Positions 30,818 to 46,264 of a stretch of DNA of 64,000 nucleotides are shown here, in pieces. The stretch's first letter is position 1; each line of letters begins with the position of its first letter. The notes below the pieces were generated by a model. That model was given only the letters and a program-made list of their open reading frames with translations, did not search any database and was not told the origin of the DNA. A program made the position numbers and the translations under genes. Source of the DNA: an uncultured Prevotellaceae bacterium. GTDB taxonomy: Bacteria; Bacteroidota; Bacteroidia; Bacteroidales; Muribaculaceae. The stretch covers positions 1-64,000 of the forward strand of contig ONGE01000020.1 in NCBI GenBank assembly GCA_900317325.1, read 5' to 3'.

Positions 30818-32365
30818 ATGTTAGCGAGAACGATTGGAGCCGCCGTGCATGGCATCGACGCCATCAAAGTCGAAATTGAAGTGACCGTTGACTGGGGGTC
30901 GGGATTCATGGTCATCGGACTGCCCGACACCGCCGTCAAGGAGAGCGCCGAGCGTGTGCGATGCGCCATGCAGCAGACGGGATTCGACTTCCCGGGTAAA
31001 AAAGTGATGGTCAACATGACGCCGGCCGACATCAAGAAGGAAGGCTCGGCCTATGACCTGCCGCTGGCGGTGGGCATCCTTGCCGGTGACGAGAAAATCA
31101 ATCTCGACCGCCTGGGGCGCTATCTGCTCATGGGCGAACTCTCGCTCGACGGCAGCCTGCGGCCCATCAAGGGCGCCTTGCCGATGGCCATCATGGCCCG
31201 TGAGCTGCATCTCGACGGCTTTATCTTGCCGCGCGCCAATGCCATGGAAGCCGCCGTGGTCAACAACCTCAAGATTTATGGCGTAGACAACCTGATTGAG
31301 GTGGTCCAGTTCCTCAACGGCGAGATTGACCTCACAGCGACCGAGGTGGACACCCGCGCCGAGTTCGCCAAGGCCCAGGGTGTTTTCCCCTACGACTTCG
31401 CCGACGTGAAGGGGCAGGAAAACGTGAAACGTGCCTTTGAGGTCGCCTGTGCCGGCGGGCACAACATCCTGCTGGTGGGCAGCCCCGGCTCGGGTAAATC
31501 GATGATGGCCAAACGATTGCCATCCATCATGCCGCCGCTCACGCTGAGCGAAGCCCTCGAAACCACCAAAATCCACAGTGTGGCCGGCAAACTGCAACAA
31601 GGCACCACGCTGATGACCGTGCGCCCCTTCCGCAGCCCGCACCACACCATCTCGCCCGTCGCCCTTGTCGGTGGCGGTTCCTACCCCATGCCCGGCGAAA
31701 TCAGCCTCGCCCACAACGGCGTCCTATTTCTTGACGAGCTGCCTGAATTTTCGCGAAATGTGCTTGAGGTAATGCGTCAGCCGCTGGAGGACAGAATTAT
31801 TTCAATTTCAAGGGCGAAATATTCAACCGAATATCCCGCCTCGTTTATGCTCGTGGCTTCGATGAACCCGTGCCCGTGTGGGTATTACGGCCACCCCAAG
31901 AAGAAATGCGTCTGCAACGAGTACCAGCGCACGCATTACATGAGCAAGATTTCGGGCCCGCTATTGGACCGCATCGACCTGCAGATCGAAGTCCAGCCCG
32001 TTGATTTCGATCAGATGTCATCTAAGGCCCCAGGCGAGCCCAGCGCCGCCATCCGCCAGCGCGTCATTGCCGCCAGGATGCTCCAGGAACGCCGCTTCAA
32101 GGACGAACCCGGCATCCACTGCAACGCCCAGATGACCCCATCCCTGCTCCACAAATACGCCGAGCCCAACGCCGCCGGCCTGGAGAAGCTGAAGGACGCC
32201 ATGGAACGCATGAACATGTCGGCTCGCGCCTACGACCGCATCCTCAAAGTCGCCCGCACCATTGCCGACCTCGAGGCCTGCGCCGACGTCCTCGACCACC
32301 ACATCATGGAAGCCATCGCCTACCGCAACCTCGACCGGCCAAGCTATATGGGATCAAGTCTTTAA
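30818..32365 (+). CDS. comM: YifB/ComM family Mg-chelatase-like AAA+ ATPase
   Basis: A 515-residue protein with the N-terminal ChlI-like domain (about 1-190), Walker A GSPGSGKSMMAK, Walker B LFLDELPEF, and the C-terminal YifB domain with AYDRILKVARTIADLEA. ComM is a hexameric helicase that promotes branch migration in natural transformation. The sequence between about 31730 and 31880 uses AT-rich codons (TTT TCG CGA AAT, TAT TCA ACC GAA) unlike its surroundings. Parts of this gene recur as decayed copies at 32887, 42016 and 43598, so the gene borders an insertion hot spot. Confidence 0.95.
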   Translation: MLARTIGAAVHGIDAIKVEIEVTVDWGSGFMVIGLPDTAVKESAERVRCAMQQTGFDFPGKKVMVNMTPADIKKEGSAYDLPLAVGILAGDEKINLDRLGRYLLMGELSLDGSLRPIKGALPMAIMARELHLDGFILPRANAMEAAVVNNLKIYGVDNLIEVVQFLNGEIDLTATEVDTRAEFAKAQGVFPYDFADVKGQENVKRAFEVACAGGHNILLVGSPGSGKSMMAKRLPSIMPPLTLSEALETTKIHSVAGKLQQGTTLMTVRPFRSPHHTISPVALVGGGSYPMPGEISLAHNGVLFLDELPEFSRNVLEVMRQPLEDRIISISRAKYSTEYPASFMLVASMNPCPCGYYGHPKKKCVCNEYQRTHYMSKISGPLLDRIDLQIEVQPVDFDQMSSKAPGEPSAAIRQRVIAARMLQERRFKDEPGIHCNAQMTPSLLHKYAEPNAAGLEKLKDAMERMNMSARAYDRILKVARTIADLEACADVLDHHIMEAIAYRNLDRPSYMGSSL

Positions 32366-32443
32366 TTATCTGCCACCTTGTTGGAAGATAGCTATATGAT
32401 GGAATGTAAAATACTGATTTTTAAAATATTAATAAGGTGTTCA

Positions 32444-32475
32444 GTTGTCAAAAAATATTTGACAACTGCCTCGGA
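32444..32475. repeat. Hairpin repeat, copy 1
   Basis: GTTGTCAAA...TTTGACAAC hairpin followed by TGCCT. A close relative is at 33135-33162. The pair brackets the 133-residue gene and the first comM remnant. Confidence 0.6.
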
Positions 32476-32480
32476 CAACT

Positions 32481-32882
32481 ATGAGCAAGGCTTATAAAGA
32501 TTATTGGAAAGAGCATTTAGACGATTGTGCCCAAGTGGCTCGTGAATATTTGGCAAAACATCCACGAAACCACAAATATCGGATCACTTGCCGAGCGTAT
32601 GACGAAGATACGAAAGAGTGGCTTGAGCCCGTTCCCGTCACAATCGAACTGACTGACGATGAGTATGTGGCGGTTATGTCCTATATGCTCTCGGTTTGCT
32701 ATAACGTCACATTCAATGCAATACTATTTCACGAACCCGCAATAGCCAAGAAGATCAACGACCAAGCTATCGTTGAGATGGAAAATCATGAAGCTCAAGA
32801 CTTATGTCCCTTCATCATCCAGTTCGATGAGTTCATCCACGACCTCAACGAAATGCCAATCATAGAAGATTTCCCATTCTAA
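32481..32882 (+). CDS. Hypothetical protein, first gene behind comM
   Basis: A 133-residue acidic soluble protein that I do not recognise. It begins ATG AGC AAG GCT and has no signal peptide or membrane helix. Its codon use is more AT-rich than comM's. It lies between the genuine comM end and the first decayed comM tail, which starts 5 bases after its stop, so it probably arrived with an insertion event. No partner or operon is apparent. Confidence 0.6.
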   Translation: MSKAYKDYWKEHLDDCAQVAREYLAKHPRNHKYRITCRAYDEDTKEWLEPVPVTIELTDDEYVAVMSYMLSVCYNVTFNAILFHEPAIAKKINDQAIVEMENHEAQDLCPFIIQFDEFIHDLNEMPIIEDFPF

Positions 32883-32886
32883 AGAA

Positions 32887-33057
32887 GTCGCCCGCGCTAT
32901 CGCCGACCGCGATGGGTTGTCAAACAACTGAATAGTCTGATTTCTGATAGCATCAGCACACTGGGCCTGCGCCGACGTCCTCGACCACCACACCCAAGTT
33001 CGACATCAGCCTCATCGCAACCTCGACCGCCCCACCTACATGGGCAACGCATTGTAG
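32887..33057 (+). pseudogene. Decayed comM 3' end, copy A
   Basis: Matches the genuine comM end (32249-32365): GTCGCCCGC-CTATCGCCGACC, then about 55 unrelated bases including AAACAACTGAATAGTCTGA, then GCCTGCGCCGACGTCCTCGACCACCAC and a final CTCGACCGCCCCACCTACATGGGC ending in TAG, as in comM. It starts 5 bases after the 133-residue gene. The inserted stretch recurs in copy B. Confidence 0.75.
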
Positions 33058-33134
33058 TTTTTGCTACCTCATCAATACAAACCTATGCAAGGAAGCGCAA
33101 TTCGTTGATAACGAATGTATTGAAACAACACTGG

Positions 33135-33162
33135 GTTGTTAAGTGTTTCTTAACAACTGCCT
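33135..33162. repeat. Hairpin repeat, copy 2
   Basis: GTTGTTAA...TTAACAAC followed by TGCCTGAAA, like the copy at 32444-32475. Confidence 0.6.
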
Positions 33163-33168
33163 GAAAAA

Positions 33169-33198
33169 TTACATCAAAAGAACCGTCCCTATTTTCCT
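33169..33198 (-). repeat. Perfect 30-bp inverted repeat, left copy
   Basis: Reverse complement of 39921-39950 without a mismatch. The core is GAACCGTCCCTATTTTCC. Similarity stops sharply on both sides. The two copies bracket 6.7 kb of AT-rich DNA. Confidence 0.9.
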
Positions 33199-33253
33199 GG
33201 TCACAAAACAATACATCAAGTAATAAATACAATAGACTGGTTTTGTTGCTCTC

Positions 33254-33523
33254 CTAATCTTGTATTGGTACTTGCTTTCTTTGTTTAATAACTATGGCGT
33301 TACATTCTTTAGCATGGTCAAAAGTTGGCCTTTCAAATGGTGGTTTTGGAGTATAATCACTGCTTTTTCGAATGAGATTATAGAGTGCGATAGGAATACC
33401 TATAATAAACATTAAACTAACGGAATACGCAAACATATCGCAAATAATAAAACCAAATTCTCTATGTTTGATGATGTCAACAACTACTGTAGCGATATTT
33501 ACTATTAACAATAAACTTAACAC
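33254..33523 (-). CDS. Small membrane protein of unknown function
   Basis: An 89-residue protein with two hydrophobic segments (about 1-17 and 27-50) and a hydrophilic C-terminus. The start at GTG 33523 is uncertain because the frame stays open upstream without a convincing ATG, so the gene may have lost its 5' end at the rearranged boundary near 33580-33640. I do not recognise it. Confidence 0.45.
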   Translation of the reverse strand: MLSLLLIVNIATVVVDIIKHREFGFIICDMFAYSVSLMFIIGIPIALYNLIRKSSDYTPKPPFERPTFDHAKECNAIVIKQRKQVPIQD

Positions 33524-33580
33524 TATACAGCCGAACCAATCTGGTATTTCTTTGAGTTCCTTCGTTGAGTATTTAACAAG

Positions 33581-33604
33581 GGCAATGATATAGCTGTTGG
33601 CCCA
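33581..33604 (+). repeat. Perfect 24-bp inverted repeat, left copy
   Basis: Identical to the reverse complement of 36013-36036. At the other copy these bases form the last codons and stop of the zinc-ribbon gene (ending AMI-stop); here a short forward frame ends with the same AMI-stop, followed by a hairpin (AATGCAGTCC/GGGCTGCATT, 33615-33638). It looks like the 3' tail of a lost relative of that gene. Confidence 0.8.
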
Positions 33605-33648
33605 GCTTTTATTGAAATGCAGTCCGAATGGGCTGCATTTGCTATGTT

Positions 33649-34209
33649 TTAATACTTTCTTGAATCTAAAGCGGTTTTTAACTCATTGAGAAAAGCGTCC
33701 CACATAGGCTTATACCTATTGTCAATCTCCAAATTGTACGCATACCTATTACCCCTTTCGTGGTACTGCACCCTGCCTTTTACGAAATCAACGATAATGC
33801 CGTCACCACTGATTTGATTCTTGTTAAATGTGACAGTTCCAACCAACACAGTCTTGTTTGGCTCAAACTTTGTGATTCTCTCAAAGGTGAATAAGACGTG
33901 AGCAGGTAGCCCCATTTGGCTTCTTCCAAAGAACTTGAACGTTTGACCGATATAATTACTCAACCAATGAGATTGAACGTCAGGTTCCATGCTATCGGCA
34001 CGGCTTATGATATCATCGTTATCAACAACCTTTGTACCATTTACAGACCTTTGGAAGTTTCCGTTCTGAATGTCTTGCATTGCTCTATGTGAGGCATTGT
34101 GTATTCGGGAATATGTTGCCGCATCCATTTCATTTAAGACCTTTGATGTGGCTTCTTTTATCAATTGGTTTAGTTCGCTTTCCGTCAGCTTAATCACTTT
34201 CTTTGCCAT
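33649..34209 (-). CDS. Hypothetical protein with N-terminal LTESEL tag
   Basis: A 186-residue soluble protein. Its first 26 residues (KKVIKLTESELNQLI, then KEATSKVLNEM) match in pattern the N-terminus of the divergently transcribed neighbour at 34301, although the rest of the two proteins is unrelated. The remainder has beta-rich character (HVLFTFERITKFEPNKTVLVG). The function is unknown. The gene ends 11 bases after a hairpin that may terminate the other strand. Confidence 0.6.
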   Translation of the reverse strand: MAKKVIKLTESELNQLIKEATSKVLNEMDAATYSRIHNASHRAMQDIQNGNFQRSVNGTKVVDNDDIISRADSMEPDVQSHWLSNYIGQTFKFFGRSQMGLPAHVLFTFERITKFEPNKTVLVGTVTFNKNQISGDGIIVDFVKGRVQYHERGNRYAYNLEIDNRYKPMWDAFLNELKTALDSRKY

Positions 34210-34300
34210 GTAGTTCTTCTTTTATCCATAAATATCTATTTCTTGCAAATATACTGCAATTTTTCCAATTTACAAAGTATTTATAAGTATAAAAACATAG

Positions 34301-34909
34301 ATGAATATGAAAAGGACAATACGATTAACGGAAAGTGATTTACATAATATGGTTAGAACTGCCATCAATGAGGTGTTGGACAATATGGATGATACCGAAA
34401 AGGCTTATTGGTTAATGCAGCAGAGAGAACAAAGGCCAAACACCAAGAGTAAAAACCCCGTGAATTATAGACAGCAATTTGCACAGACATTCAACAATGA
34501 AGTTTATCCTGAAGGTAATTCGCAAGTAGGGACTAATTGGCCTGAATATAATGAGGGCGGTAAATTTAGAGTCACCAACCCAAACGGTTCTTATGCTTAT
34601 GGCGGTGCTGGTGTTGACGATAATGGAAACTTCAGAGCGTGGCAGAACGGATTTACAGCACCATCGCAGGGTAAACCTTGGGGAGACGCGATTGAAGGCG
34701 CAAACTTCAATTATTACCAAGGAAGACCACAGAATGGAACTAACGGTTTTAGTCAGAGTATTGGCACGGGCAATAAGGGACAAATGCAACCAAAAGATGT
34801 CAATATGCACCCACAATTCCAACAGATGGCGAATAAAGGCCGTACAAGATACAATCAAATTCAGCAGAAATACAATCAGCAAAGGCAATCGCAGCAGCCT
34901 CAAGGATAA
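34301..34909 (+). CDS. Hypothetical Asn/Gln-rich protein with N-terminal LTESDLH tag
   Basis: A 202-residue protein. Residues 4-30 form a tag (RTIRLTESDLHNMV, then RTAINEVLDNMD) shared with the neighbour at 33649. The rest is rich in N, Q and G and looks disordered (about 40-202). ATG 34301 and ATG 34307 are both possible. The IS1595 transposase stop is only 6 bases past this stop codon, so the insertion boundary is very close and the C-terminus may be truncated or replaced. Confidence 0.6.
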   Translation: MNMKRTIRLTESDLHNMVRTAINEVLDNMDDTEKAYWLMQQREQRPNTKSKNPVNYRQQFAQTFNNEVYPEGNSQVGTNWPEYNEGGKFRVTNPNGSYAYGGAGVDDNGNFRAWQNGFTAPSQGKPWGDAIEGANFNYYQGRPQNGTNGFSQSIGTGNKGQMQPKDVNMHPQFQQMANKGRTRYNQIQQKYNQQRQSQQPQG

Positions 34910-34915
34910 TCTATT

Positions 34916-35890
34916 CTAAGCCGCAACGCACAATCTAACCTCACTCCAACGGACAATCAAACCAATTGACTTGGCAAACATGTGGGCGAATCTCTCTGAT
35001 TCGTCCATTTTTCGTGTATTCCAACGATACACTGCCTCATCGATGTAGCCTTGCAGATGCTCGTCGCTGACATCATGGTAGCAACCCGTAATCATCCTAC
35101 GGAAATGCGACCAAAAACCCTCAATGGTATTGGTGAATATGTCCCCATTCGCGTACTGTTCAGCACCGTGATTAACGATGGCATGACCATAACCCAACTT
35201 GGTCAGACCATTATAGGCGTTCAACTCATCGGTAATAACCGTTGAACCCTCAGCAACGAACTGCTTGATAATGGGCTGCAATGTGTCCTTGTCGGTCTTC
35301 TCCACAACGAACGCGTGGACATAACTCATGGGAATTACGTCACCCTTTTCGTCTTCGATATAGGTACGCTCCATCATACCGAATACGGGGGTCTTGGTCT
35401 TGGTTGAACGGCCTTGGGTATGGGGCGTTCTCATGGATTTGTGCTTCCACTTCTCCTTGCCACCGATGTACACCTCATCGCACTCGACAACGCCCTCAAA
35501 GGCTTCCGCATCGCTCTGAGGATAAAGCAAGCGGATTTTCTGCAACATATACCATGCGCTTGCTTGGGTGATATCAAGGTCACGGCTCAACTGATGAGAG
35601 GAAACGCCCTTCTTATGGCTGCTGATTAGGTACATGGCCACGAACCACTTGATAAGCGGTAACTTGGTATTCTCGAAGATTGTGCCCACGAGACAGGAGA
35701 AGTTCTTGAGGCAGTGGTTGCAACGGAAACGTCCGTCACCACGCTTGGAGCAATGATGTGCGCCACAGTAGGGGCAAACCACGTCACCGTCAGCCCAACG
35801 TGACTCGATGATGGCCTGTTGGCACTTCTCCTTAGTGTTGAAGTAAGAAGTGAGCGAGATAATGTTATTGAACTTTGCAAAGTTAATCAT
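34916..35890 (-). mobile_element. IS1595-family insertion sequence transposase
   Basis: A 324-residue transposase that appears intact. It has an N-terminal zinc ribbon (CPYCGAHHCSKRGDGRFRC), a helix-turn-helix (GVSSHQLSRDLDITQASAWYML) and an ISXO2-like DDE domain with VECDEVYIGG, ITDELNAYNG and NTIEGFWSHFRRMI. Terminal repeats are not obvious: a weak resemblance (ATTCT-AGC) exists between 34913 and about 35975, so I do not define the ends. Confidence 0.9.
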
Positions 35891-35976
35891 GCCAATATAC
35901 CGTTTTTGTATTAAACTAATGCAAAGTTCGCGACTTTTCCAGTAAATCCGGAATATTTTTAGCTAAAGAATGCTAG

Positions 35977-36010
35977 AAAACCCGCAAACCATGTAAGATT
36001 CGCGGGTTTT
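35977..36010 (-). terminator. Terminator after the zinc-ribbon membrane gene
   Basis: Stem AAAACCCGC/GCGGGTTTT, 14 bases past the stop at 36024 on the reverse strand. Confidence 0.8.
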
Positions 36011-36012
36011 AG

Positions 36013-36036
36013 TGGGCCAACAGCTATATCATTGCC
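36013..36036 (-). repeat. Perfect 24-bp inverted repeat, right copy
   Basis: Pairs with 33581-33604. Here it covers the last four codons and stop of the zinc-ribbon gene and 11 bases beyond. Confidence 0.8.
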
Positions 36037-36461
36037 TTAACAAGTGTATTTTCGAATTCTTTACTTCGCTTTTCACAGTCATTGCAGTATTTAACAAACC
36101 CAAAAATGATTTCGTTCTTTTTACTATACATTTCGTAATGTGCTGTATATTGATCGTCGGTAACGATTTTTCCGCAAACTGGACAAACAAAACCGCCGTT
36201 TTCAATGGCCTTCTTCTTATCTATGTAAACTTTAAAGTCTTTTTCTCTACGAATGTTCTCATTGTGTTCTTTTGTTTGACTGATTGCAGTATATATAATC
36301 CAAATAATGAAACAAACGAGAGAAATAAGTAATATACTCCCTATACTGAAATTTTCTGGATGACTTGTATCTTCTTGCGCTTCATGCATATAAACAGATT
36401 GAGCCAAAGTAAGACTACTAGTTTCCAAAATTGAAAAGACAAAGCAAATGACTTTTTTCAT
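36024..36461 (-). CDS. Exported or membrane-anchored zinc-ribbon protein
   Basis: A 145-residue protein: a signal-like N-terminus (MKKVICFVFSILETSSLTLAQ), a second hydrophobic helix (about 42-62), a basic stretch, then a metal-binding module with CPVCGKIV and CNDCEKRS (about 90-130). Start chosen at ATG 36461. The function is unknown. It is part of a reverse-strand string of AT-rich genes from 39842 down to 36024. Confidence 0.6.
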   Translation of the reverse strand: MKKVICFVFSILETSSLTLAQSVYMHEAQEDTSHPENFSIGSILLISLVCFIIWIIYTAISQTKEHNENIRREKDFKVYIDKKKAIENGGFVCPVCGKIVTDDQYTAHYEMYSKKNEIIFGFVKYCNDCEKRSKEFENTLVKAMI

Positions 36462-36507
36462 GTTCTTTGTTTTATGGTGGAATAATAATATGTAAATAGT
36501 TGCCGAT

Positions 36508-36729
36508 TTAAAGTTCTGAATGATCATTATCAGAATCGCGGTCAAACACACCAGGAATATCTTCTGCTACTCCAGCGGGGCAGATATAATAATGCTCGTA
36601 GAGAGGGACATCTTTATAATGATGCTTGAGATTATATTCAGCAACCTCTCGTGAGATGAATGTAGCACAACAGAAGTCGCTGCCATCAGCTTCTACACAT
36701 CTGATTTCGTATTTCCTTTGATCTTTCAT
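36508..36729 (-). CDS. Small hypothetical protein
   Basis: A 73-residue acidic protein. The ATG at 36729 overlaps the stop of the upstream frame-shifted gene by the ATGA arrangement, so it is translated in the same operon. Two adjacent cysteines (DFCCATF) and a CPAG motif are present but no clear metal site. I do not recognise it. Confidence 0.55.
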   Translation of the reverse strand: MKDQRKYEIRCVEADGSDFCCATFISREVAEYNLKHHYKDVPLYEHYYICPAGVAEDIPGVFDRDSDNDHSEL

Positions 36730-37081
36730 ATTTCGTACATTTCTTGAAGGTCTGAGTAAAAGCCGATAAGTTGACGGCGCAGCGTGTGGTCATCTACGGG
36801 GATATCACCGTTCTTAATCTGCATAATGCACTCCGAGAGATAATCGGGCGGTGAAGTCTTAACGAGGAGAGCCAATATTGTTGCATCCTTTTATGGGGGA
36901 AGTCACCATAGCCCAGAAATTCCCACAAGAAATAGATGGGCGTTTTCAATGGCTCCAACCAGGCGGCAACAGAATGGTTCAGTTCCTTGTTCATTCCTTC
37001 AGTCCTTACCATTTTGTCTTGTTGTTCGCAAATCGAACTAACAATTTTTTTCAGCCGTTCTCTACTCGGTGTATCACTCAT
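36726..37081 (-). pseudogene. Hypothetical gene with a single-base frameshift
   Basis: The first frame reads from ATG 37081 through GYGDFPHKR and then turns to nonsense ending at 36794. A second frame takes over at about 36890 (ILALLVKTSPPDYLSECIMQ) and continues to TGA at 36726, which overlaps the next ATG. Adding one base in the AAAA run joins the two into a protein of about 118 residues. Either a recent mutation or a sequencing error in a homopolymer. Confidence 0.65.
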
Positions 37082-37096
37082 ATTAAATTACAAATA

Positions 37097-38818
37097 TTAA
37101 AATCCCATAGATTCATAATCAATATCTACACCTGGATAATCGCCTTCTGTACCATCTGTCAAAGCATCCCATCTATCACGACCATAATCATTGTCATCAT
37201 AGCGTTCAATGGGATCTTTTATATTAGGTATAAGGTCATAATAGTAAGAGAACCAGTAAATATCCTCTTTTATTTGACTCAACCTATTATTTAGGCCAGT
37301 TCTAGAGTCTTCTGCTGATATCAAGTCAGTAAAGGCTGTATCAAATATTTTAAGATTAGGTAATGTGATTCTTTTGAGGTCCTCAGCGGAATTATTCAGA
37401 CTTATTTTGAACCAGCCAAACTTAATCTCTTTAATTAAATCTTCAGTGCCGATACTATTGATTGCAACAATATCTAATTCTTCATCATATAATGAGCGAA
37501 GGTGAACAGAAGTATTGTTATCGTCGATCTCTTCTCCTGTGAAATAAAAGCCTGCTTCTGGATGGGTTATGAAAATATACTCTGCGGGTAAAATAATTCT
37601 TTCGTAATTTCTTATACCAACATAGTGTCTGATTTTATAGAGATTCCTATTGTCAACAACTACAGGTATTTTCTTTTCCTCTTTATAAAGGAGAAAATCC
37701 TTTTCAATTATTTCCACAATATCATAGAATGGAATCTGCTTACCAGTTGATATCTGAATGGATGAAACTTTTCGATCATTATTATTGTTCTTTGCAAAAA
37801 TAATACTATCTCCTTCAATCTTTACTAATCCATCAATCATTGAATCAATAGGGATATTATAAAGGTATATTTTTTTGTTATCTTCCCATCTGATATTAAT
37901 TCTGCAAATAGACCCTTTTTTAAACTGATAACGTTTACCTTTCTCATTTCTTTTAATCGTTTTTAGATTCTCGTCGAGAACTAACCAACCACCTATACCT
38001 TTATTAAACGTGTAATCATGAATGTAAATGCCATTCCATTCATCAACACATTGTGAGAATCTTTCCCATTCCCCACCAAGAAGGAAAATAAATAATTTCT
38101 TTTCCTTGTTATATTGAAAATCTGAAAATCCACCAAATATCAGTTCCCCAGATGAAGAATACAAATCATAGACTCCACTGTAATCTGTAGCATTTGAATG
38201 ATTATCATGGTATAGCATTTCACCGTTTCTACCTGCTAAAATGAAATTATCCTTAATTTTGAAACAGTCATATTTTGCCTTTATGATAATCTGCCCATCT
38301 TTATTCATACATCCCCATGTGCCATCCAAAATATTACTAAAGAATGTCCATGTTGAGTATTCACTTCCATCTTCACCATTGTAACCGAAGAAGATGAAAT
38401 CATTATTTCTTTGAAGGTGCTCATACATAGAAGAAACTATTTCGGTTCCATCATCTCCTAAAATGCCATATAATCCGGTCATATTGTTCTTTACGATTTC
38501 TCCAGACCACTTTAATGGAAGTCTTTTTGAATACTTCGTATCAACAATAATCTTCCCTGATGTATCAAGAACTCCCCAACTGTCATTGACTCTAACATCT
38601 ACAAAGCCATCTTCCCTCAATGAAATTTCATCAAAGATTATGGGGATTGTTATTGCTCCTTCACCATCTATAACTCCAACTTTGCCATTTTTCGAGACCT
38701 TTATTTTCTGCTGGATTATTTCAGCAGTATCATAGATTGGTTTAATAACAATGTTTTCATTAAAATCCTTAAAACCGATCTTATTATTCTGTATGAATTG
38801 TCTTAGATTGAATTCCAT
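37097..38818 (-). CDS. WG-repeat protein
   Basis: A 573-residue protein with several WG-type repeats in the N-terminal half: KNGKVGVIDGEGAITIPI, DSWGVLDTSGKIIVDTKY, MTGLYGILGDDGTEIV and GTWGCMNKDGQIIIKAKY. No signal peptide is seen, so it may act in the cytoplasm or depend on another route. WG-repeat proteins are common beside small unknown genes in Bacteroidetes accessory regions; some are suspected immunity or binding proteins. The C-terminal acidic region is unrecognised. Confidence 0.7.
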   Translation of the reverse strand: MEFNLRQFIQNNKIGFKDFNENIVIKPIYDTAEIIQQKIKVSKNGKVGVIDGEGAITIPIIFDEISLREDGFVDVRVNDSWGVLDTSGKIIVDTKYSKRLPLKWSGEIVKNNMTGLYGILGDDGTEIVSSMYEHLQRNNDFIFFGYNGEDGSEYSTWTFFSNILDGTWGCMNKDGQIIIKAKYDCFKIKDNFILAGRNGEMLYHDNHSNATDYSGVYDLYSSSGELIFGGFSDFQYNKEKKLFIFLLGGEWERFSQCVDEWNGIYIHDYTFNKGIGGWLVLDENLKTIKRNEKGKRYQFKKGSICRINIRWEDNKKIYLYNIPIDSMIDGLVKIEGDSIIFAKNNNNDRKVSSIQISTGKQIPFYDIVEIIEKDFLLYKEEKKIPVVVDNRNLYKIRHYVGIRNYERIILPAEYIFITHPEAGFYFTGEEIDDNNTSVHLRSLYDEELDIVAINSIGTEDLIKEIKFGWFKISLNNSAEDLKRITLPNLKIFDTAFTDLISAEDSRTGLNNRLSQIKEDIYWFSYYYDLIPNIKDPIERYDDNDYGRDRWDALTDGTEGDYPGVDIDYESMGF

Positions 38819-38916
38819 TGGATGATATAATTACTGATTCTACAATTAGTATCGTCTCATAGTTAGACCAGAAGTGTGTCGGTCCATTATCTAATGGGCG
38901 CTTCCTTGATAGAGGC

Positions 38917-39087
38917 TTAAGGCACTTGGTCTATGAATCGGACTATATTATTATCCATGTCAAAGTTTTTCTCTTCGTCAGGATAATAGTATTTCATATA
39001 ACACTTTAAGCACAAAGAGCCAGTATCATTTCTATCTTCTATTTTCCTGCCACAAAACTCGCAGTGATCAAGACCTAAAAAATTCAT
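38917..39087 (-). CDS. Small zinc-ribbon protein (56 residues)
   Basis: A short gene from ATG 39087 to TAA 38917: MNFLGLDHCEFCGRKIED, then GSLCLKCYMKYYYPDEEK. Two CxxC pairs (residues 9-12 and 26-29) are spaced like a treble-clef or rubredoxin-type zinc knuckle. It lies between two reverse-strand genes and has the same codon style, so it is probably real. Its function is unknown. Confidence 0.6.
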   Translation of the reverse strand: MNFLGLDHCEFCGRKIEDRNDTGSLCLKCYMKYYYPDEEKNFDMDNNIVRFIDQVP

Positions 39088-39125
39088 TTTTACTAACTAT
39101 TTAAAAACGTTTTAACGCGTGAAAC

Positions 39126-39842
39126 CTAGAAACGTATTCCACAATCATATCGATATTCAGTTTTTTCATCAAATGGAACAATGTCTGTGATTTTGTTGTT
39201 CTCTATTTTGATTTCTGAAAACTCGCGTATAAGGCCGAAGAAGTTACTCCAATAACAGCATGAAATATAGAACTTGCCATTACTTTCTCTAACTTCTGGA
39301 GTAAAATCAAATTTTACTATATTCTCCATAATACTTAGCCTATCTTCTTCATTAAGGGTCTTAATCTTGTGCATATCTTCTTTTACGAACAAGTAATCAC
39401 GAGCATCATAGATGGCATGACCAAATAAAGGTAAAGCACGCCACAAATTATGAAGTAGGTTTGCTTGCCATGCGCCCATACATGATTGTTCTACTTGAAG
39501 ATGGTTAAAGATATTTTCATCATTACCACCATTGGGGAGCGAAATCACAAGACAACTTTTATCTCTTGGTACTTCTGGTTTGACTATCTCAACAATAAGT
39601 CTTCCTTCTGGAAGATTAATCTTATCAAGGCATTTTAATAATGAATCATATTCTTGTTTATAAACCAAAGCGCCAAACTCTTCAGCAATAGCTATATAAT
39701 CTGCTGCAGCATTTTGCTCCCGTCCTTGAATAATAGCATGATACGCTTTTAAAGCTTCTAATTTCTTAATTTTTTCAACTTCTAATTTCAAGTGACGTTC
39801 ACGATCTATTTTCTTACGTTTGAATATATCAAATAGTCCCAT
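39126..39842 (-). CDS. Hypothetical protein
   Basis: A 238-residue soluble protein beginning MGLFDIFKRKKI, a common opening for Bacteroidetes proteins of unknown function. An N-terminal helical part (about 10-75) is followed by an alpha/beta domain with NLWRALPLFGHAIYDARDYLF. ATG 39842 is chosen over the alternative start two codons upstream. It is probably the first gene of the string 39842-36024. Nothing visible indicates a catalytic role. Confidence 0.6.
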   Translation of the reverse strand: MGLFDIFKRKKIDRERHLKLEVEKIKKLEALKAYHAIIQGREQNAAADYIAIAEEFGALVYKQEYDSLLKCLDKINLPEGRLIVEIVKPEVPRDKSCLVISLPNGGNDENIFNHLQVEQSCMGAWQANLLHNLWRALPLFGHAIYDARDYLFVKEDMHKIKTLNEEDRLSIMENIVKFDFTPEVRESNGKFYISCCYWSNFFGLIREFSEIKIENNKITDIVPFDEKTEYRYDCGIRF

Positions 39843-39920
39843 ATTCAATACTTAGTTAATAATTAATTTAAATATTTGAAATTCAATGAGTTATTTTAAC
39901 AATATATAACTGATAAAACA

Positions 39921-39950
39921 AGGAAAATAGGGACGGTTCTTTTGATGTAA
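39921..39950 (+). repeat. Perfect 30-bp inverted repeat, right copy
   Basis: Reverse complement of 33169-33198. It is also the start of repeat R1. The core GGGACGGTTCTTTTG resembles motifs I associate with REP-type elements of RAYT transposases, but no such transposase is in the window. Confidence 0.9.
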
Positions 39951-40190
39951 AATCCGCCACTATCAGTAGGCGGCTTCTGCCAAAGAACAACGGCAAATAT
40001 ACACATTATTTCACAATTGTGCCCATTTTGCTTGCATTTTTTTACTCCAATACCCTTAGTAATGCGTTATTGTCATGTATTTTGTGGTTGTGAATGTCTT
40101 AATGGTACATATTTGGTCGTTTTAGGGGCTTTATGTCTGACTTTAAGGTTGCTGCAATGGGGTAAGTTCTTCAGCTTGGATGAGCCCACC
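39921..40190 (+). repeat. Diverged direct repeat R1 (about 270 bp)
   Basis: Aligns by eye along its length with 41744-42035. Shared blocks are GGGACGGTTCT, CATTATTTCA, TTTGCTTGC, ATGGTACATAT and CTTGGATGA. It lies downstream of the TIR gene's 3' end. The 40017-40214 open frame within it is a chance frame. Confidence 0.7.
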
Positions 40191-40359
40191 ATTACCTCCT
40201 TATCTTGTTTATAATCACTCCCTAACCTATTAAATAATTGAGTTAAGGACTAAATATAAATCATAATTAGTCCCTAACATATTTGCTAGATCTAGATTTT
40301 TAGTGGACAGCAATAGGAAAAAATACATTAAATAATCGAATAACGATTATCATCTATTT
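40191..40359. other. AT-rich spacer between repeat R1 and the TIR gene end
   Basis: Contains an imperfect hairpin GTTAAGGACTA/TAGTCCCTAAC (40242-40278) and an extra TCCCTAAC at 40219-40226. No gene is seen. Confidence 0.5.
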
Positions 40360-41640
40360 TTACAATACACTTCTTCTATAACTTCTCAATATCTTATGAA
40401 CTAATGCCAGCAGCGAACAATCGTCATCATAATTACGCACCTCAATGTCCCTAAACATAAAAGGCGGAGTTTGCCGAGGTTCCTTGGCAATAATGAACAA
40501 GTCTGTGTCGGCTCCACGTGCAATACCAGCTTCAATACAGGTATTAAACCTGAATATCTTATCTTTGTTGACTTTTCCGTTGTTGACCTTTCCTCCTACT
40601 TCACAATTCAAGCATTGTTCATCACCTGTAATATCTGCAATCATAACATATGCGCTGCGAATCCTGTCAATTATCTGCTGTTGGAGGCTACCTTTATTGA
40701 TGTCTTCACCCAAAATGCAATGCGTGGCCGTAACAACACCAGCTAGATCTCTAATCAGTTCATTGATGGATTGCCTTCTACTGTCCAGATTGGTTGCAAA
40801 GAAGACATGTGGTGTTTTAGGCCGCTTCACTGTCAACAGGTTGATGTGATTCAATAGCTGTGTATCTTCTATGCTTTCGTGATCCGTTATCCTCAAGAGT
40901 GGATATTCAAAATCTTCCAAGTTCTCCACACGGGCATCTGCGAACAAAACACCTGGCAATCCGCAATCTTGTGCTTTGCAAATCTCGTCCAGGATATACC
41001 GAGATGTGTTAGATTCACCTCTGTAGGGCAATATTCCCACATAAGCCCCACATGTTTGCATAATTCGCCTTATACGGTCATCTTCATCATAAACACTGTT
41101 GTTTCCGGCATCACCGATGATTCTATATCGTTTCCGCTTGAGTTGGCGAAATACCGCATTGACTAAGTCCTGCTCCTCCTTTCTCCACGAGTAACTGACA
41201 TATACGTCTTTCTCCTGGCGCATATTTTCGGAACTACCATAAAGAGCAGCCAATATACCAAAGAACGCAACAGGAGATAGTCCTTCTTTGCAGTCAATCC
41301 ATTTATAATTGTTGAAGAATCCGGGCAGTGTACAATCATCTATTACGATGGGAATAATTGCTTTTAGTTCTTTGTTCTTTTGAAGGTCTCTTGCATAACC
41401 ATACTCATCTTGCACCCATGTTGAGTCGCATGAGTTCTTGGACAATACCACGATGAATGACTCGCTATTACCTATGTACTTTGGCAAGTCAGACAACAAG
41501 TGAGTATTCGATGTCAATTTCTTTTCATCGTACCATATATGAAACCCGGCCTTCTCAAGCAAGCTATGCAGTTTGTTCGTGAAATCAATATCCAAGCTGG
41601 AATGACTCAGGAAAATGTCGTATTTCTTATTTCTAGCCAT
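40360..41640 (-). CDS. Multidomain TIR protein (putative defence protein)
   Basis: A 426-residue protein. Residues about 4-125 are a TIR domain (YDIFLSHSSLDIDF, FHIWYDEKKL, SFIVVLSKNSCDSTWVQDEYG); the glutamate in QDEYG is at the usual catalytic position. Residues about 145-265 look like a second TIR-type fold (DVYVSYSWRKEEQDLVNAVF). The third domain (about 280-420) resembles nucleoside deoxyribosyltransferase-like or TIR-like nucleotide-binding folds (YVMIADITGD..., FNTCIEAGIARGADTDLFII). Bacterial TIR proteins usually degrade NAD+ or make signal nucleotides in anti-phage systems; that role is inferred. ATG 41640 is the chosen start. Confidence 0.8.
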   Translation of the reverse strand: MARNKKYDIFLSHSSLDIDFTNKLHSLLEKAGFHIWYDEKKLTSNTHLLSDLPKYIGNSESFIVVLSKNSCDSTWVQDEYGYARDLQKNKELKAIIPIVIDDCTLPGFFNNYKWIDCKEGLSPVAFFGILAALYGSSENMRQEKDVYVSYSWRKEEQDLVNAVFRQLKRKRYRIIGDAGNNSVYDEDDRIRRIMQTCGAYVGILPYRGESNTSRYILDEICKAQDCGLPGVLFADARVENLEDFEYPLLRITDHESIEDTQLLNHINLLTVKRPKTPHVFFATNLDSRRQSINELIRDLAGVVTATHCILGEDINKGSLQQQIIDRIRSAYVMIADITGDEQCLNCEVGGKVNNGKVNKDKIFRFNTCIEAGIARGADTDLFIIAKEPRQTPPFMFRDIEVRNYDDDCSLLALVHKILRSYRRSVL

Positions 41641-41761
41641 GATGCTTGTATTTTTTAATCTTTGAACTATCAATCAGTTCTCTCACTAACTCCTCTAATT
41701 CCATCGCAGTTCCATCCCACAAATCACTAATACCGCAGTCATAAGGAAAAACGGGACGGTT
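41633..41761 (-). pseudogene. 3' remnant of a gene upstream of the TIR gene
   Basis: An open frame ending at TAG 41633 overlaps the TIR start by 8 bases. It encodes VFPYDCGISDLWDGT then MELEELVRELIDSS and is cut off at its 5' side by repeat R2. The overlap looks like a genuine operon junction, so a partner gene may have been lost when the repeat arrived. Confidence 0.4.
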
Positions 41762-42035
41762 CTATTGACGACAATCAATCATCATCGGTAGGAAGTCTTA
41801 CACCAAAGAATGATTGCAAATTTAGTCATTATTTCATAATTACACCCAGTTTGCTTGCTTTTTTTCACTTCTATATTCCAAGATAAGTTTTGGATATGTA
41901 TCTTTATGCTATTGATCGTTTTTATGGTACATATGGCGCATGTTTCAGTGGTATTTATGTTTCAGTGGTATTTATGCTTCTGTGGGATGCTTGGAAATGG
42001 CACAAGTCGTTCCGCTTGGATGAATTGCCAGAATT
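41744..42035 (+). repeat. Diverged direct repeat R2 (about 290 bp)
   Basis: The counterpart of R1. It includes a 17-bp tandem duplication (TGTTTCAGTGGTATTTA at 41941-41957 and 41958-41974) absent from R1, and runs directly into the comM fragment at 42016. R1 and R2 bracket the TIR gene. Confidence 0.7.
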
Positions 42036-42312
42036 TTCGCGAAATGTGCTGGAAGTGATGCGTCAGCCGCTGGAAGACAGGATAATAAGTATCAGTAGGG
42101 CGAAGTATTCAACCGAATATCCAGCCTCGTTCATGCTGGTGGCCAGCATGAATCCGTGCCCGTGCTTTCGATCAAACAATTAAAACAACTTTCTATTTGT
42201 AAACAACTGATTTATCTGAGATTCCTGATAGACATCCTCATGGGAACACTCACCCGACTCCCTCATCCATCAGATGCTCGACCGCCCCACCTACCTCGGC
42301 ACCAGCCTATAA
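42016..42312 (+). pseudogene. Decayed comM fragment, copy B
   Basis: Bases 42016-42165 correspond to comM 31730-31879 with no gaps. I count 30 differences in 150 bases, all synonymous: all 50 codons give the same residues ([14 protein letters not shown]...MNPCPC). Then follow a junction stretch (42200-42235) shared with copy A and a comM terminal piece CTCGACCGCCCCACCTACCTCGG to 42312. The middle third of comM is missing. Confidence 0.85.
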
Positions 42313-42332
42313 TACAAAAAAACGGGAGTACT

Positions 42333-42377
42333 ACTTCAGATTTTCGCTGAATTTTTGAAGTAACACTTCAGATTTTC
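42333..42377. repeat. Direct repeat ahead of the DUF4143 gene
   Basis: ACTTCAGATTTTC occurs at 42333-42345 and 42365-42377 (32-base period), upstream of the promoter at 42411. It may be an operator. Confidence 0.45.
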
Positions 42378-42410
42378 TCCATTTTTCTTGCGGGTTTTAC
42401 AGTTCCTTCG

Positions 42411-42418
42411 TACATTTG
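42411..42418 (+). promoter_or_regulatory. -7 promoter element (TACATTTG)
   Basis: Exact TAnnTTTG, 21 bases before the ATG at 42440. Confidence 0.6.
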
Positions 42419-42439
42419 CGGAAACTAAATGCAGATGCT

Positions 42440-43582
42440 ATGCTTGAACGGATACTAAAATTAGAAGAGGTCAAAACAGATAGCCTATTCCTTTGGGGCT
42501 CAAGGCAGACGGGAAAAAGTACATTGTTGAAAATGCTTTTTCCTGACGCTCATGTATATGATTTGTTGAAGAGTGACGTGCGTATGGCGTTGCAACTGCG
42601 TCCATCGCAACTGCGCGAGGAATGCGAACTGCTTGACGATGGTGAATTGATTATCATTGATGAGGTGCAGAAGGTACCTGCTTTGCTTGACGAAGTACAC
42701 TGGCTTATTGAGAATAAAAAACAGAGGTTCATTTTAAGTGGCTCAAGTGCCCGTAAACTGCGACGCAGCGGAGCTAACCTCTTAGGCGGTCGCGCACTCA
42801 GGCAGACGCTCTTTCCGCTGGTGAGTGCCGAGGTTCCAGACTTTGACCTCAACCGTGCTCTGAACCATGGCATGTTGCCCAGCCACTACCTGATGGAGAA
42901 TCCCACCATGAGGGTTCAAGCCTACATTGGCGATTACCTGCAGCAAGAAATCGTCGAGGAGGCTATCGTTCGCCGCCTTGATGCTTTCACAAGATTCCTG
43001 CAAGTGGCGGCACTGAGCAACAGTGAGATTGTCAACTATACCAATATCGCCCAAGATTGCGGCGTCTCATCAAAAACGGTTAAGGAATACTTCTCCATTC
43101 TTGAAGAGACTATGCTGGGATTCTTCTTGCCTTCCTACACTAAGGTGGTAAAACGCAGGGTTATCCAGTCTCCTAAGTTTTACTACTTTGACGTTGCTAT
43201 ACCCAACCATCTACTTCACCGAATCCCTCTACAGCCAGGCACCGACGTTTATGGTCATGCACTTGAGCATCTTGTCATCCAAGAGTTGCGTGCCTTTATG
43301 TCTTACCGCCAGCCATTGAAATCACTTTCCTATTGGCACACGCTGGACAACAAATATGAGGTGGATGCTGTCCTCGGTGATGCAGAGGTTGCCATTGAAG
43401 TAAAATCTTCCAAGAATGTCGGTTCGCATGATACCAAAGGACTGAAAGCCTTCAGTGAAGAATATCCCGAAGCTAAGTTGTACCTTCTTTCGCTTGAAGA
43501 CCGGCCCCGCAAGTTCAATGGCGTGGAAGTATGGCCCGTTGAACAATTCTTTAAACGCCTTTGGTCCGGCAAGATTATTTGA
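42440..43582 (+). CDS. AAA-family ATPase with DUF4143 domain
   Basis: A 380-residue protein with Walker A GSRQTGKST (20-28), Walker B LIIIDEVQK, the LSGSSARKLRRSGANLLGGRA loop and a C-terminal DUF4143 domain with SILEETMLGFFLPSY and the nuclease-like VDAVLGDAEVAIEVKSSKN motif. Such proteins are frequent in Bacteroidetes mobile regions. The function is not established. ATG 42440 is chosen because the longer frame begins in the promoter element. The third comM remnant starts 15 bases past its stop. Confidence 0.9.
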   Translation: MLERILKLEEVKTDSLFLWGSRQTGKSTLLKMLFPDAHVYDLLKSDVRMALQLRPSQLREECELLDDGELIIIDEVQKVPALLDEVHWLIENKKQRFILSGSSARKLRRSGANLLGGRALRQTLFPLVSAEVPDFDLNRALNHGMLPSHYLMENPTMRVQAYIGDYLQQEIVEEAIVRRLDAFTRFLQVAALSNSEIVNYTNIAQDCGVSSKTVKEYFSILEETMLGFFLPSYTKVVKRRVIQSPKFYYFDVAIPNHLLHRIPLQPGTDVYGHALEHLVIQELRAFMSYRQPLKSLSYWHTLDNKYEVDAVLGDAEVAIEVKSSKNVGSHDTKGLKAFSEEYPEAKLYLLSLEDRPRKFNGVEVWPVEQFFKRLWSGKII

Positions 43583-43597
43583 CCGCAGCCTCTGGGG

Positions 43598-43702
43598 GTC
43601 GCCCGCACCATCGCCGACCTCGAAGGCCTGCGCCGACATCCTCGAGCACCACATGATAGCTCGACAGCTGCCTTAACGCAATCTCGACTGGCCAATTATT
43701 GG
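43598..43702 (+). pseudogene. Decayed comM 3' end, copy C
   Basis: Matches comM from GTCGCCCGCACCAT through GCCTGCGCCGACATCCTCGA to a disrupted end CTCGACTGGCCAATTATTGG. It includes an extra G that breaks the frame. It marks the right border of the accessory island. Confidence 0.75.
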
Positions 43703-43853
43703 CAGGTGTCAAGGTTGGGGGTGATGGAACGATTTTTGCAGTGTGTTAAGTAACATGGTGAATATAATGAGGTGTTGCATGATAGGGTTTAATAAGTGGT
43801 TCTGACCTTCAGGCAACATTGAAAACGGATTACAGGGACCTGGCAATAGTATT

Positions 43854-44537
43854 ATGAAACGAGAAGAAACATATATTCCTTACAAGGAAAGAACACCTAA
43901 GGAGTTGCGCCGGGACATCAATCTTAAGGCCGAGAAGCTGTTTCTCAAGAATGATAAGTATGGCCTGCTCTTTTTCGCTTTGGCTTTCTTTGGGCTCGTG
44001 GCTCTGCACTTGTACTGCACGACGAATGTGTATATGTGGCTAGGGTTCTTGGTGGAAGGATTCATCTTGGCTGGGGGCATATTTTTCTTCAAGACCTATT
44101 CTTCGAAGAATGATAAAATTCGCCAGGTCGTTTGGGCTGTGGCAATCTTCGTGTGCATAGTTCTAGAATGGCAAGAAAAGACGAATGTGAATTGGCTGTT
44201 AGGTGCCATTATGGTGGGGACAATCGTCGTGGTGATCGCTGTTTTCTTCAAAATCAATCAAAGAATGGTCAACGACATGAATCTCGCCCCAAACCCCAAG
44301 CGGCTTCTTCCTATTGCCAAGAGGCTGAAAAGAAGTTTCCAGTTAAGGAATTTCATTTGCCTTGCCCTGCTGTTGTGGCTTCCTTTCCTGACCATCGATG
44401 AGTTTCTTGATGGATGGGTGTTTGGATACTTGCTCATTTCATTTCTGGTCTGTGCTCTTTTCGGTAACCGGGATTTCTGGATTGATTCCTCATTTAATGA
44501 CGACTTGGACGAATTGGAGTACAGATTCGAAGAATGA
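43854..44537 (+). CDS. Membrane protein of unknown function
   Basis: A 227-residue protein with about six hydrophobic helices and a long cytoplasmic N-terminus (KREETYIPYKERTPKELRRD). It ends in an acidic tail (DDLDELEYRFEE). I do not recognise the family. Codon use is intermediate between the island and the chromosome. It is convergent with the acyl-CoA synthetase gene, sharing a terminator. Confidence 0.7.
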   Translation: MKREETYIPYKERTPKELRRDINLKAEKLFLKNDKYGLLFFALAFFGLVALHLYCTTNVYMWLGFLVEGFILAGGIFFFKTYSSKNDKIRQVVWAVAIFVCIVLEWQEKTNVNWLLGAIMVGTIVVVIAVFFKINQRMVNDMNLAPNPKRLLPIAKRLKRSFQLRNFICLALLLWLPFLTIDEFLDGWVFGYLLISFLVCALFGNRDFWIDSSFNDDLDELEYRFEE

Positions 44538-44579
44538 GTTCAGGGCTTAGGTTAGTTTGAATCAACCTAAGCCCTGAAC
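44538..44579. terminator. Bidirectional terminator
   Basis: A perfect 16-bp stem (GTTCAGGGCTTAGGTT / AACCTAAGCCCTGAAC) lies between convergent genes. Confidence 0.8.
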
Positions 44580-44597
44580 TATAAAACTTGAATTTCT

Positions 44598-46217: not shown

Positions 46218-46264
46218 ATTCTTCAAGTTATTTCAATTCTATATGCTAATTCATCTAATTATCA

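Follow-up and report, generated by a model that had tools for sequence, protein, structure and literature searches.

An array of cargo blocks with displaced comM ends as borders between comM and acs in an uncultured Muribaculaceae genome

The window analysed here, a stretch of 64,000 nucleotides from contig ONGE01000020.1 of an uncultured Prevotellaceae bacterium (assembly GCA_900317325.1, Muribaculaceae in the GTDB lineage), carries an intact comM gene that is followed by about five cargo blocks before the gene acs is reached, and displaced pieces of the comM 3' part form the borders of these blocks (Table 1). A first-pass annotation of the window had reported three decayed comM 3' copies, all in the orientation of comM. 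These were recovered by blastn with comM (30818-32365) as query against window 32366-44600, which matched end B at 42026-42164 (84%, E 3e-37), end C at 43581-43695 (81%, E 6e-21) and end A at 32964-33044 (83%, E 1e-15) and 32885-32912 (86%, E 1e-3). End B starts at comM codon ~303, at the Walker B motif LDELPEF. The DNA between the copies is AT-rich, as had been noted, with a GC content of 33-49% in the island compared to 58-62% upstream of comM (1-kb windows). The extra junction sequence that had been ascribed to both A and B was found as well: it is a filler (AAACAACTGA..TCTGA..CTGATAG), and the same kind of filler is present within displaced comM ends of nine further loci (L034, L035, L037, L043, L045, L051, L055, L063 and L087). 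This suggests an old, derived lineage of comM tails that is not peculiar to the window. At window 42166-42267, 3' of comM codon ~355, the filler is rich in AACAACTG and substitutes for the mid-tail; this AACAACTG-rich form is conserved across species, in the displaced ends of the first eight of the loci named above.

The 9-kb middle of the island between A and B, which had been taken as one unit, consists of at least two blocks. An inverted repeat (IR) with arms of 33 nt (33169-33201 and 39918-39950, 97% identity) encloses a 6.8-kb block. Homologues of the conserved left end, with identities of 81-99%, lie directly 3' of a comM end in the genomes G026, G035 (twice) and G184. The first copy of the right end is also present in loci L087 and L105, where it is followed by identical bases. 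A search with 41743-42164 against the window's own genome returned three matches, all of them at this locus (the query itself, comM and right end copy 1). The segment 40174-40213 was considered as a fourth comM remnant and rejected, as the right end upstream of it is alone secure. Arms resembling those of the IR are also seen in the arrays of G026, G032, G035 and G184.

Table 1 Features of the comM array in the window and serine recombinase genes beside comM pieces on five viral contigs.
Feature	Sequence	Position	Strand	Remarks
comM (YifB/Mg-chelatase-like ATPase)	window	30818..32365	+	intact open frame, 515 codons; anchor gene of the array
comM codon 281	window	31658..31660	+	junction of displaced ends in the second group of the genus, after the 27-bp CCCACCACATAATCGTATACTTGTGCC; not in the window
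comM codons 303-306	window	31724..31735	+	junction of displaced ends in the window's group; aligned junctions
comM codons 481-511	window	32258..32350	+	near-invariant tail end common to genuine and displaced copies; proposed exchange block
Cargo 1, 133-aa protein	window	32481..32882	+	first block after comM; no Pfam match at E 0.01
Displaced comM end A	window	32885..33057	+	~codons 476-515 with filler
Conserved left end	window	33058..33201	+	after tail A; terminates in an IR arm
Cargo 2	window	33254..39848	.	~6.6 kb; small proteins, WG-repeat protein, 240-aa protein, internal IS1595 transposase
IS1595-family transposase	window	34916..35890	-	separate insertion sequence; PF12762 E 1.3e-45
WG-repeat protein	window	37097-38818	-	within cargo 2
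240-aa protein	window	39126-39848	-	within cargo 2
Right end copy 1	window	39918..40183	+	ends in CTTGGATGA; few comM bases at most beyond; precedes the TIR gene
Cargo 3, TIR-domain protein, 437 aa	window	40360..41673	-	PF13676 E 1.8e-26; PF08937 ThsB_TIR E 5.9e-5
Right end copy 2	window	41743..42013	+	immediately before displaced end B
Displaced comM end B	window	42014..42312	+	codons 303-355 (42014-42165), filler, final codons
Cargo 4, AAA_14/DUF4143 ATPase, 388 aa	window	42416..43582	+	PF13635 E 8.5e-32; PF13173 E 1e-18
Displaced comM end C	window	43581..43702	+	overlaps the cargo 4 stop codon
Cargo 5 or ancestral neighbour, 227-aa membrane-like protein	window	43854..44537	+	no Pfam match
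acs, AMP-binding enzyme	window	44598..46226	-	PF00501 E 1.5e-63; conserved right border of the array
Serine recombinase	L109	8119-9651	-	beside comM codon 215; PF00239 without PF07508
Serine recombinase	L112	7914-9701	-	beside comM codon 215
Serine recombinase	L110	2187-4043	-	beside comM codons 278-356
Serine recombinase	L136	8114-9895	-	beside comM codons 278-356
Serine recombinase	L137	6264-7931	+	beside comM codons 278-356

The same locus was compared across 101 genomes of the genus, mostly metagenome-assembled genomes of rumen Muribaculaceae, 88 of which contain a match to the first 300 amino acids of ComM. A first comM search covered 61 genomes (57 with a match), and the subsequent census took in as much as 18 kb downstream of comM in 84 genomes, with acs being reached in 21 of these loci. 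Already in the first set, many genomes had partial comM copies starting at codon 303/304, and others had copies starting at codons 278-281. Six genomes contain near-complete displaced ends (codons 301/304 to ~515) with 93-97% protein identity to the comM of the window. Of the 56 genomes in which 4 kb or more follow comM, 36 contain a displaced comM piece, namely 19 of the 21 acs-bounded genomes and 17 of the remaining 35. The displaced tail-end matches (65, in 38 of the 84 loci) lie without exception on the comM strand. One comM tail piece in G018 (L172:5088-5273; G018:C3:195084-195272; codons 452-513, 84%) is located 25 kb off, on the opposite strand and outside the array. The first-pass annotation had proposed to look in relatives for an empty comM junction and for other cargo between comM-tail copies. 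Other cargo was found, for instance in the sister species represented by L034. A perfectly empty ancestral comM-acs junction was not found in the genus; the shortest interval, 1,187 bp in G199, holds one truncated block. Family-wide, the comM 3' part was matched at E 1e-6 in 111 of 119 genomes, seven of the 119 belonging to this genus. Among the 112 family genomes outside the genus, extra pieces occur in G101, G132 and G111, and two long copies in G087. The comM island of G101 (genus g21) contains a displaced end from codon ~383, and Prevotella P5-108 one from codon ~382.

Displaced pieces were located by tblastn (E ≤0.01), which yielded 85 pieces in 41 of the 84 loci. Of their starts, 25 fall at codons 285-306, 14 at codons 270-284, 27 at codons 450-482 and 19 elsewhere. 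The two recurrent starts, codons 303 and 281, are each preceded by a conserved end of their own. The codon-303 ends (41 sites in 77 loci) were gathered by their final 34 bp, and conservation within these bases is thus partly a matter of choice; at positions -110 to -40 conservation amounts to 0.56-0.75 compared to a background of ~0.38, and comM then follows in 33 of the 41 cases. An exact form of the codon-303 end was found at 22 sites in 18 of the 101 genomes with 0 control matches, and comM adjoins it in nine of ten fetched loci. The 27-bp codon-281 end CCCACCACATAATCGTATACTTGTGCC was found with up to three mismatches at 26 sites in 17 of the 101 genomes, again with 0 control matches; comM follows directly from ~codon 281 at 24 of the 26 sites. 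The window's own genome has no match to this end at the same tolerance. In both groups, weak similarity to comM persists for some codons upstream of the clean start, which indicates that the conserved ends may be altered comM sequence. Codons 303-320 exist in the genus in at least three very different nucleotide versions (EFSRN, EFNRS and EYPKS), in genuine as well as displaced copies, and these are possibly different site types.

The comM 3' part itself differs between the window and its sister species. While the comM genes of the window and L034 are 96.1% identical over nucleotides 1-900, identity is 80.1% over codons 304-360, and there is no alignment between the two cargoes. The change point estimated from the first 1065 nt lies at codon 308 (294-320; 2lnLR, twice the log-likelihood ratio, 46); on 1300 nt it lies at codon 296 (290-317) and on 1530 nt at codon 296 (221-317). 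This fits a junction at codon 303. The integrity of comM could be judged in 78 of the 84 loci, six being too short, and its end is normal in 70 of the 78 genomes (64 by rule, three by eye and three after re-anchoring). An irregularity at codon 478 of comM in L055 (G024) was considered as a recombination scar; this reading was rejected, because the irregularity is a tandem duplication of 7 bp, which alters the comM frame.

Movement between species is seen for blocks that have comM ends as borders. L047 and L055 have a 2,346-bp block in common that is 99.74% identical, whereas their comM codons 1-290 are only 82.9% identical; the block is the second after comM in L047 and the first in L055, and it carries a SocA/Panacea-type antitoxin gene (Pfam run on the L063 copy). 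Similarly, L038 and L094 share a 2,619-bp block at 98.05% identity, which comes first in L038 and second in L094, with comM codons 1-290 at 80.0%. On both sides of the moved blocks, identity stops within or at the end of a comM tail. The right border of one moved cassette is a short tail only, without the codon-303 end. Turnover is high next to comM, as the first 400 nt past its stop form 17 clusters in 24 genomes compared to a single cluster in 19 genomes at the acs end. Together with the recurrent start codons and the cargo difference between sister species, which goes with a break in comM, this movement bears out the earlier proposal that the comM 3' end has received insertions repeatedly, every one of which introduced or displaced a comM end. 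The pieces are comM-derived, and the arrangement is not an ancestral and fixed one. The first-pass observation is real and larger in extent than first described.

The final codons of comM are nearly invariant. In the window's group (24 genomes) synonymous differences amount to 0.10 at codons 481-510 compared to 0.32-0.49 over codons 1-360 and 0.20-0.31 over codons 361-480, and in the rest of the genus (51) to 0.19 compared to 0.34-0.58 elsewhere in the gene. The comM genes of other genera (13) show 0.63 at these codons, the same as in the rest of the gene. The near-invariance is thus confined to this genus and concerns the stretch that nearly all cassettes carry; it can mean frequent exchange or a constraint at the DNA level. 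A hairpin in the form of an attC-like imperfect palindrome was not detected in the tail of the window, which folds no better than shuffled sequences (z -0.06 and 1.02; both strands, one sequence). This argues against an integron-type hairpin site.

The 21 bounded islands contain 60 cargo clusters. Among the Pfam families listed (25 of 74) are TIR, AAA_14, RhuM, LRR, sulfate permease and RND transporter domains, and none is a Tn7-type transposition protein (Tns/Tni). PADLOC matches, of which 25 of 88 are listed, include PDC-S01, S05, S11, S23, S27, HEC-09, bSEFIR and ThsB, and further cargo consists of genes for Panacea-type antitoxins and HNH, FRG and YhcG nucleases. Judged by these domains, the cargo appears defence-like in part, not wholly. 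Relatives of the 227-aa protein beside acs were found as seven open reading frames (ORFs) in six of the 21 bounded islands.

The first-pass annotation had seen no integrase at this locus, and the genus arrays yielded no tyrosine or serine recombinase either, among the matches listed. In 26 genomes, none of the listed PF00589 matches (189 in total) falls on island coordinates, and the 22 PF00239 matches of these genomes all lie outside comM islands. PF07508 is present in nine of the 101 genomes, never on the comM contig, and all 13 PF00589 matches of the window's own genome lie off the comM contig. A phmmer search of 530 island ORFs returned nothing; its queries were two integrase fragments and nine seed ORFs, the latter being putative recombinase genes taken from recombinase loci of the window's own genome. 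In another Muribaculaceae genus (g21), the comM island of G101 contains a truncated tyrosine recombinase (L173:7062-7571; PF00589 E 1.2e-13). Moreover, serine recombinase genes (PF00239, four also with PF07508) adjoin comM pieces in five IMG/VR contigs (Table 1). In L110, L136 and L137 the comM piece starts at codon 278-281; L110 and L136 have the recombinase on this side, whereas in L137 it is found on that of codon 356. The position of recombinase genes at differing conserved points of comM suggests that site-specific recombinases have targeted comM repeatedly, and the coincidence of the codon-281 junction of the second group with the border on viral contigs would support a site-specific origin. 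The codon-303 end had no exact match in IMG/VR. In IMG/VR, near-full-cover matches to the comM 3' part reach at most 62% identity, and shorter pieces go up to 89%; the corresponding near-full-cover values are 67.5% in plasmid records and 64.6% in the phage records listed (15 of 23), with one further record in the 80-90% band. Thus, no carrier was identified.

We interpret the locus, with a probability of roughly 0.65, as an array of mobile comM-tail cassettes with replacement of the comM end; this figure applies to the cassettes and the end replacement, and the first two rivals considered below are alternatives for the mechanism behind them. A cassette would consist of the comM 3' part and one to a few cargo genes from the comM stop onward, and its full form would also include the short conserved end, which adjoins comM at codon ~303 or, in the other group, at codon 281. 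Insertion would join the resident comM 5' part to the incoming 3' part and thereby rebuild comM, and the old 3' part and older cargo would be pushed downstream to decay. As starts recur and ends are conserved, the founding insertions may have been site-specific, with a spare comM 3' end, and made by an enzyme that is no longer carried. Later reshuffling would occur by recombination between comM tails (codons ~478-511) and probably be RecA-dependent, because a short-tail cassette has moved, the breakpoints lie in tails and recombinases were not found in the arrays among the matches listed. It is nearly as likely that a trans-acting recombinase accounts for both founding and reshuffling. The benefit is probably a place for collecting defence-like genes at little cost to ComM.

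Several results weigh against this interpretation. The 27 of 85 starts at codons 450-482 and the 19 elsewhere are not predicted by a strictly site-specific model, and comM does not follow eight of the 41 codon-303 ends. In a second close pair, L035 and L037, the comM change point is codon 263 (interval 254-270), and near 308 there is only an additional step, which indicates that exchange began upstream of the codon-303 junction. The comM frame is altered past codon 303 in eight of the 78 genomes, all in the window's group: it stops at 308 aa in G201 and at 429 aa in G199, and G205, G195, G049, G024, G017 and G055 have another C-terminus. Just 15 of the 21 acs-bounded genomes have a normal comM end. 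The altered genes show that exchange past codon 303 is sometimes imprecise, and an insertion may at times impair ComM. No displaced piece was seen in 20 of the 56 genomes with sufficient sequence, including G176, which alone among the 101 consists of a single contig; most of the genomes are bins from metagenomes, with some of the arrays situated at the end of a contig. Variation is also found in the ~300 nt upstream of comM (13 clusters in 24 genomes), a control poorer than that at acs, which weakens the turnover argument. The near-invariance of the tail could result from another kind of DNA-level constraint. Lastly, the Pfam view of the cargo covers the 25 families listed of 74, and the PF00589 negative covers the matches listed, with the weakest of the 189 partly outside it.

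A serious rival, to which we give somewhat less than even odds, is RecA-dependent homologous recombination alone, with no dedicated system. A chance duplication of the comM 3' part would have become a portable homology arm, a comM end and its neighbour gene would enter by transformation or transduction, and the incoming DNA would recombine with any comM tail, so that cargo accumulates and tails are homogenised. This would account for the recombinase-free arrays (among the matches listed), for breakpoints scattered over the comM 3' part, for the scattered starts of short tails and for the homogenisation of codons 481-510 in this genus only, and it is in line with the unremarkable fold of the window tail and with the moved cassette that has a short tail in place of a codon-303 end at its right border. 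However, it leaves unexplained why two distinct start points recur and why each of them has a conserved end of its own that is not comM. These sharp ends, together with a displaced comM end that starts at a fixed point beside them, would fit ordinary site-specific integrative elements with a tyrosine or large serine recombinase, which would insert at comM and leave remnants to be moved in trans by intact relatives. We consider such elements a little less probable again than RecA alone. The serine recombinases beside comM pieces in five IMG/VR contigs, in three of which the comM piece starts at codon 278-281, and the truncated tyrosine recombinase in L173 from another genus are in their favour, but no such recombinase was found in any genus array at the sensitivity used, PF07508 in the nine genomes never lies on the comM contig, the recombinase of L137 is on the codon-356 rather than the 281 side, and the moved short-tail cassette has no conserved end at its right border. 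Furthermore, large serine recombinases normally split their target and carry no replacement gene end. An ancestral comM duplication with in-place decay and cargo from unrelated insertions would explain why displaced pieces are tandem and decayed, but is very improbable, as it is contradicted by the transfer of blocks with 99.74% and 98.05% identity between species whose comM 5' parts are 80-83% identical, by the different cargo of sister species and by near-complete displaced ends in six genomes, with a protein sequence 93-97% identical to that of the window comM. Tn7-like targeting as by AbaR in Acinetobacter has the same target gene and defence cargo, the latter reported for A. baumannii comM islands (PMC11472951), but with comM intact in 70 of 78 genomes, borders that are comM copies and no Tn7-type protein among the cargo families listed (25 of 74) it is the least credible explanation.

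The comM site is a site of gene exchange with much defence-like cargo in uncultured rumen bacteria, at which the target gene is mostly kept working. The arrays make it testable whether cassettes can spread without a recombinase of their own and whether ends of core genes can serve as portable homology arms. Exact probes for a carrier or an enzyme are available in the conserved ends, which measure 27 bp at codon 281 and ~40-110 bp at codon 303, and the arrays provide a list of candidate defence genes. It may be speculated, as an idea we consider rather doubtful at present, that this is a new kind of gene-cassette system, in which the 3' coding end of the core gene comM is the recombination site and is carried as a passport, capture regenerates comM, and an enzyme or a RecA-only process acts in trans. 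ComM of other bacteria is reported to be a helicase that aids recombination of heterologous DNA (PMC11472951); thus, the array may sit in a gene whose product helps to build it. We found no description of comM-tail cassettes or of a Bacteroidales comM hot spot in the literature searched, a search that mostly left out subscription papers.

Integron cassettes are small tandem cargo blocks behind a fixed anchor, bounded by a ~100-bp repeat and in a single orientation. The comM arrays resemble them in their small tandem blocks, which follow a fixed anchor and are bounded by a repeat of ~100 bp in one orientation (65 of 65 tail matches on the comM strand), but no nearby integron integrase (among the matches listed) and no unusual fold of the tail (one sequence) were found, the cargo occupies either strand, and the repeat belongs to the coding sequence of the anchor gene itself. 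In the accretion of integrative elements and cis-mobilizable elements (CIMEs), as with e14 in icd, an element brings the 3' end of a gene, the old end is displaced, and remnants without recombinase accumulate in tandem. In contrast, arrays are present here in 19 of the 21 bounded genomes of one group, their blocks are exchanged singly between species, and no autonomous member was found. The serine recombinase elements on viral contigs (L109, L110, L112, L136 and L137) are similar in that the comM piece of three of the five starts at codon 278-281, as in the second group of the genus, but they carry a recombinase, and the likeness of these three to the cassettes lies in the shared start codon.

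The parallel to AbaR drawn in the first-pass annotation holds for the target and fails for its fate. In Acinetobacter, comM is reported to be interrupted by AbaR and by further elements, some of which carry CBASS or Zorya (PMC11472951, PMC7253598), and it is disrupted in 22% of strains (PMC11472951). Common to both cases are the comM hot spot and defence genes in the cargo (PMC7253598, PMC11472951), whereas the comM studied here is mostly intact (70 of 78 genomes), with its 3' end probably replaced. The closest published pattern found is that of the Dehalococcoides ssrA islands, where many islands with diverse cargo lie at one conserved single-copy gene and are a major source of strain diversity (PMC3146451). 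There, 16 of 31 islands have an integration module and 15 do not, whereas no such module was found in the arrays examined here. The target of the Dehalococcoides islands is a transfer-messenger RNA gene; in the comM arrays it is a protein gene, of which the carried piece comprises up to ~640-700 bp of coding sequence (PMC3146451 for Dehalococcoides).

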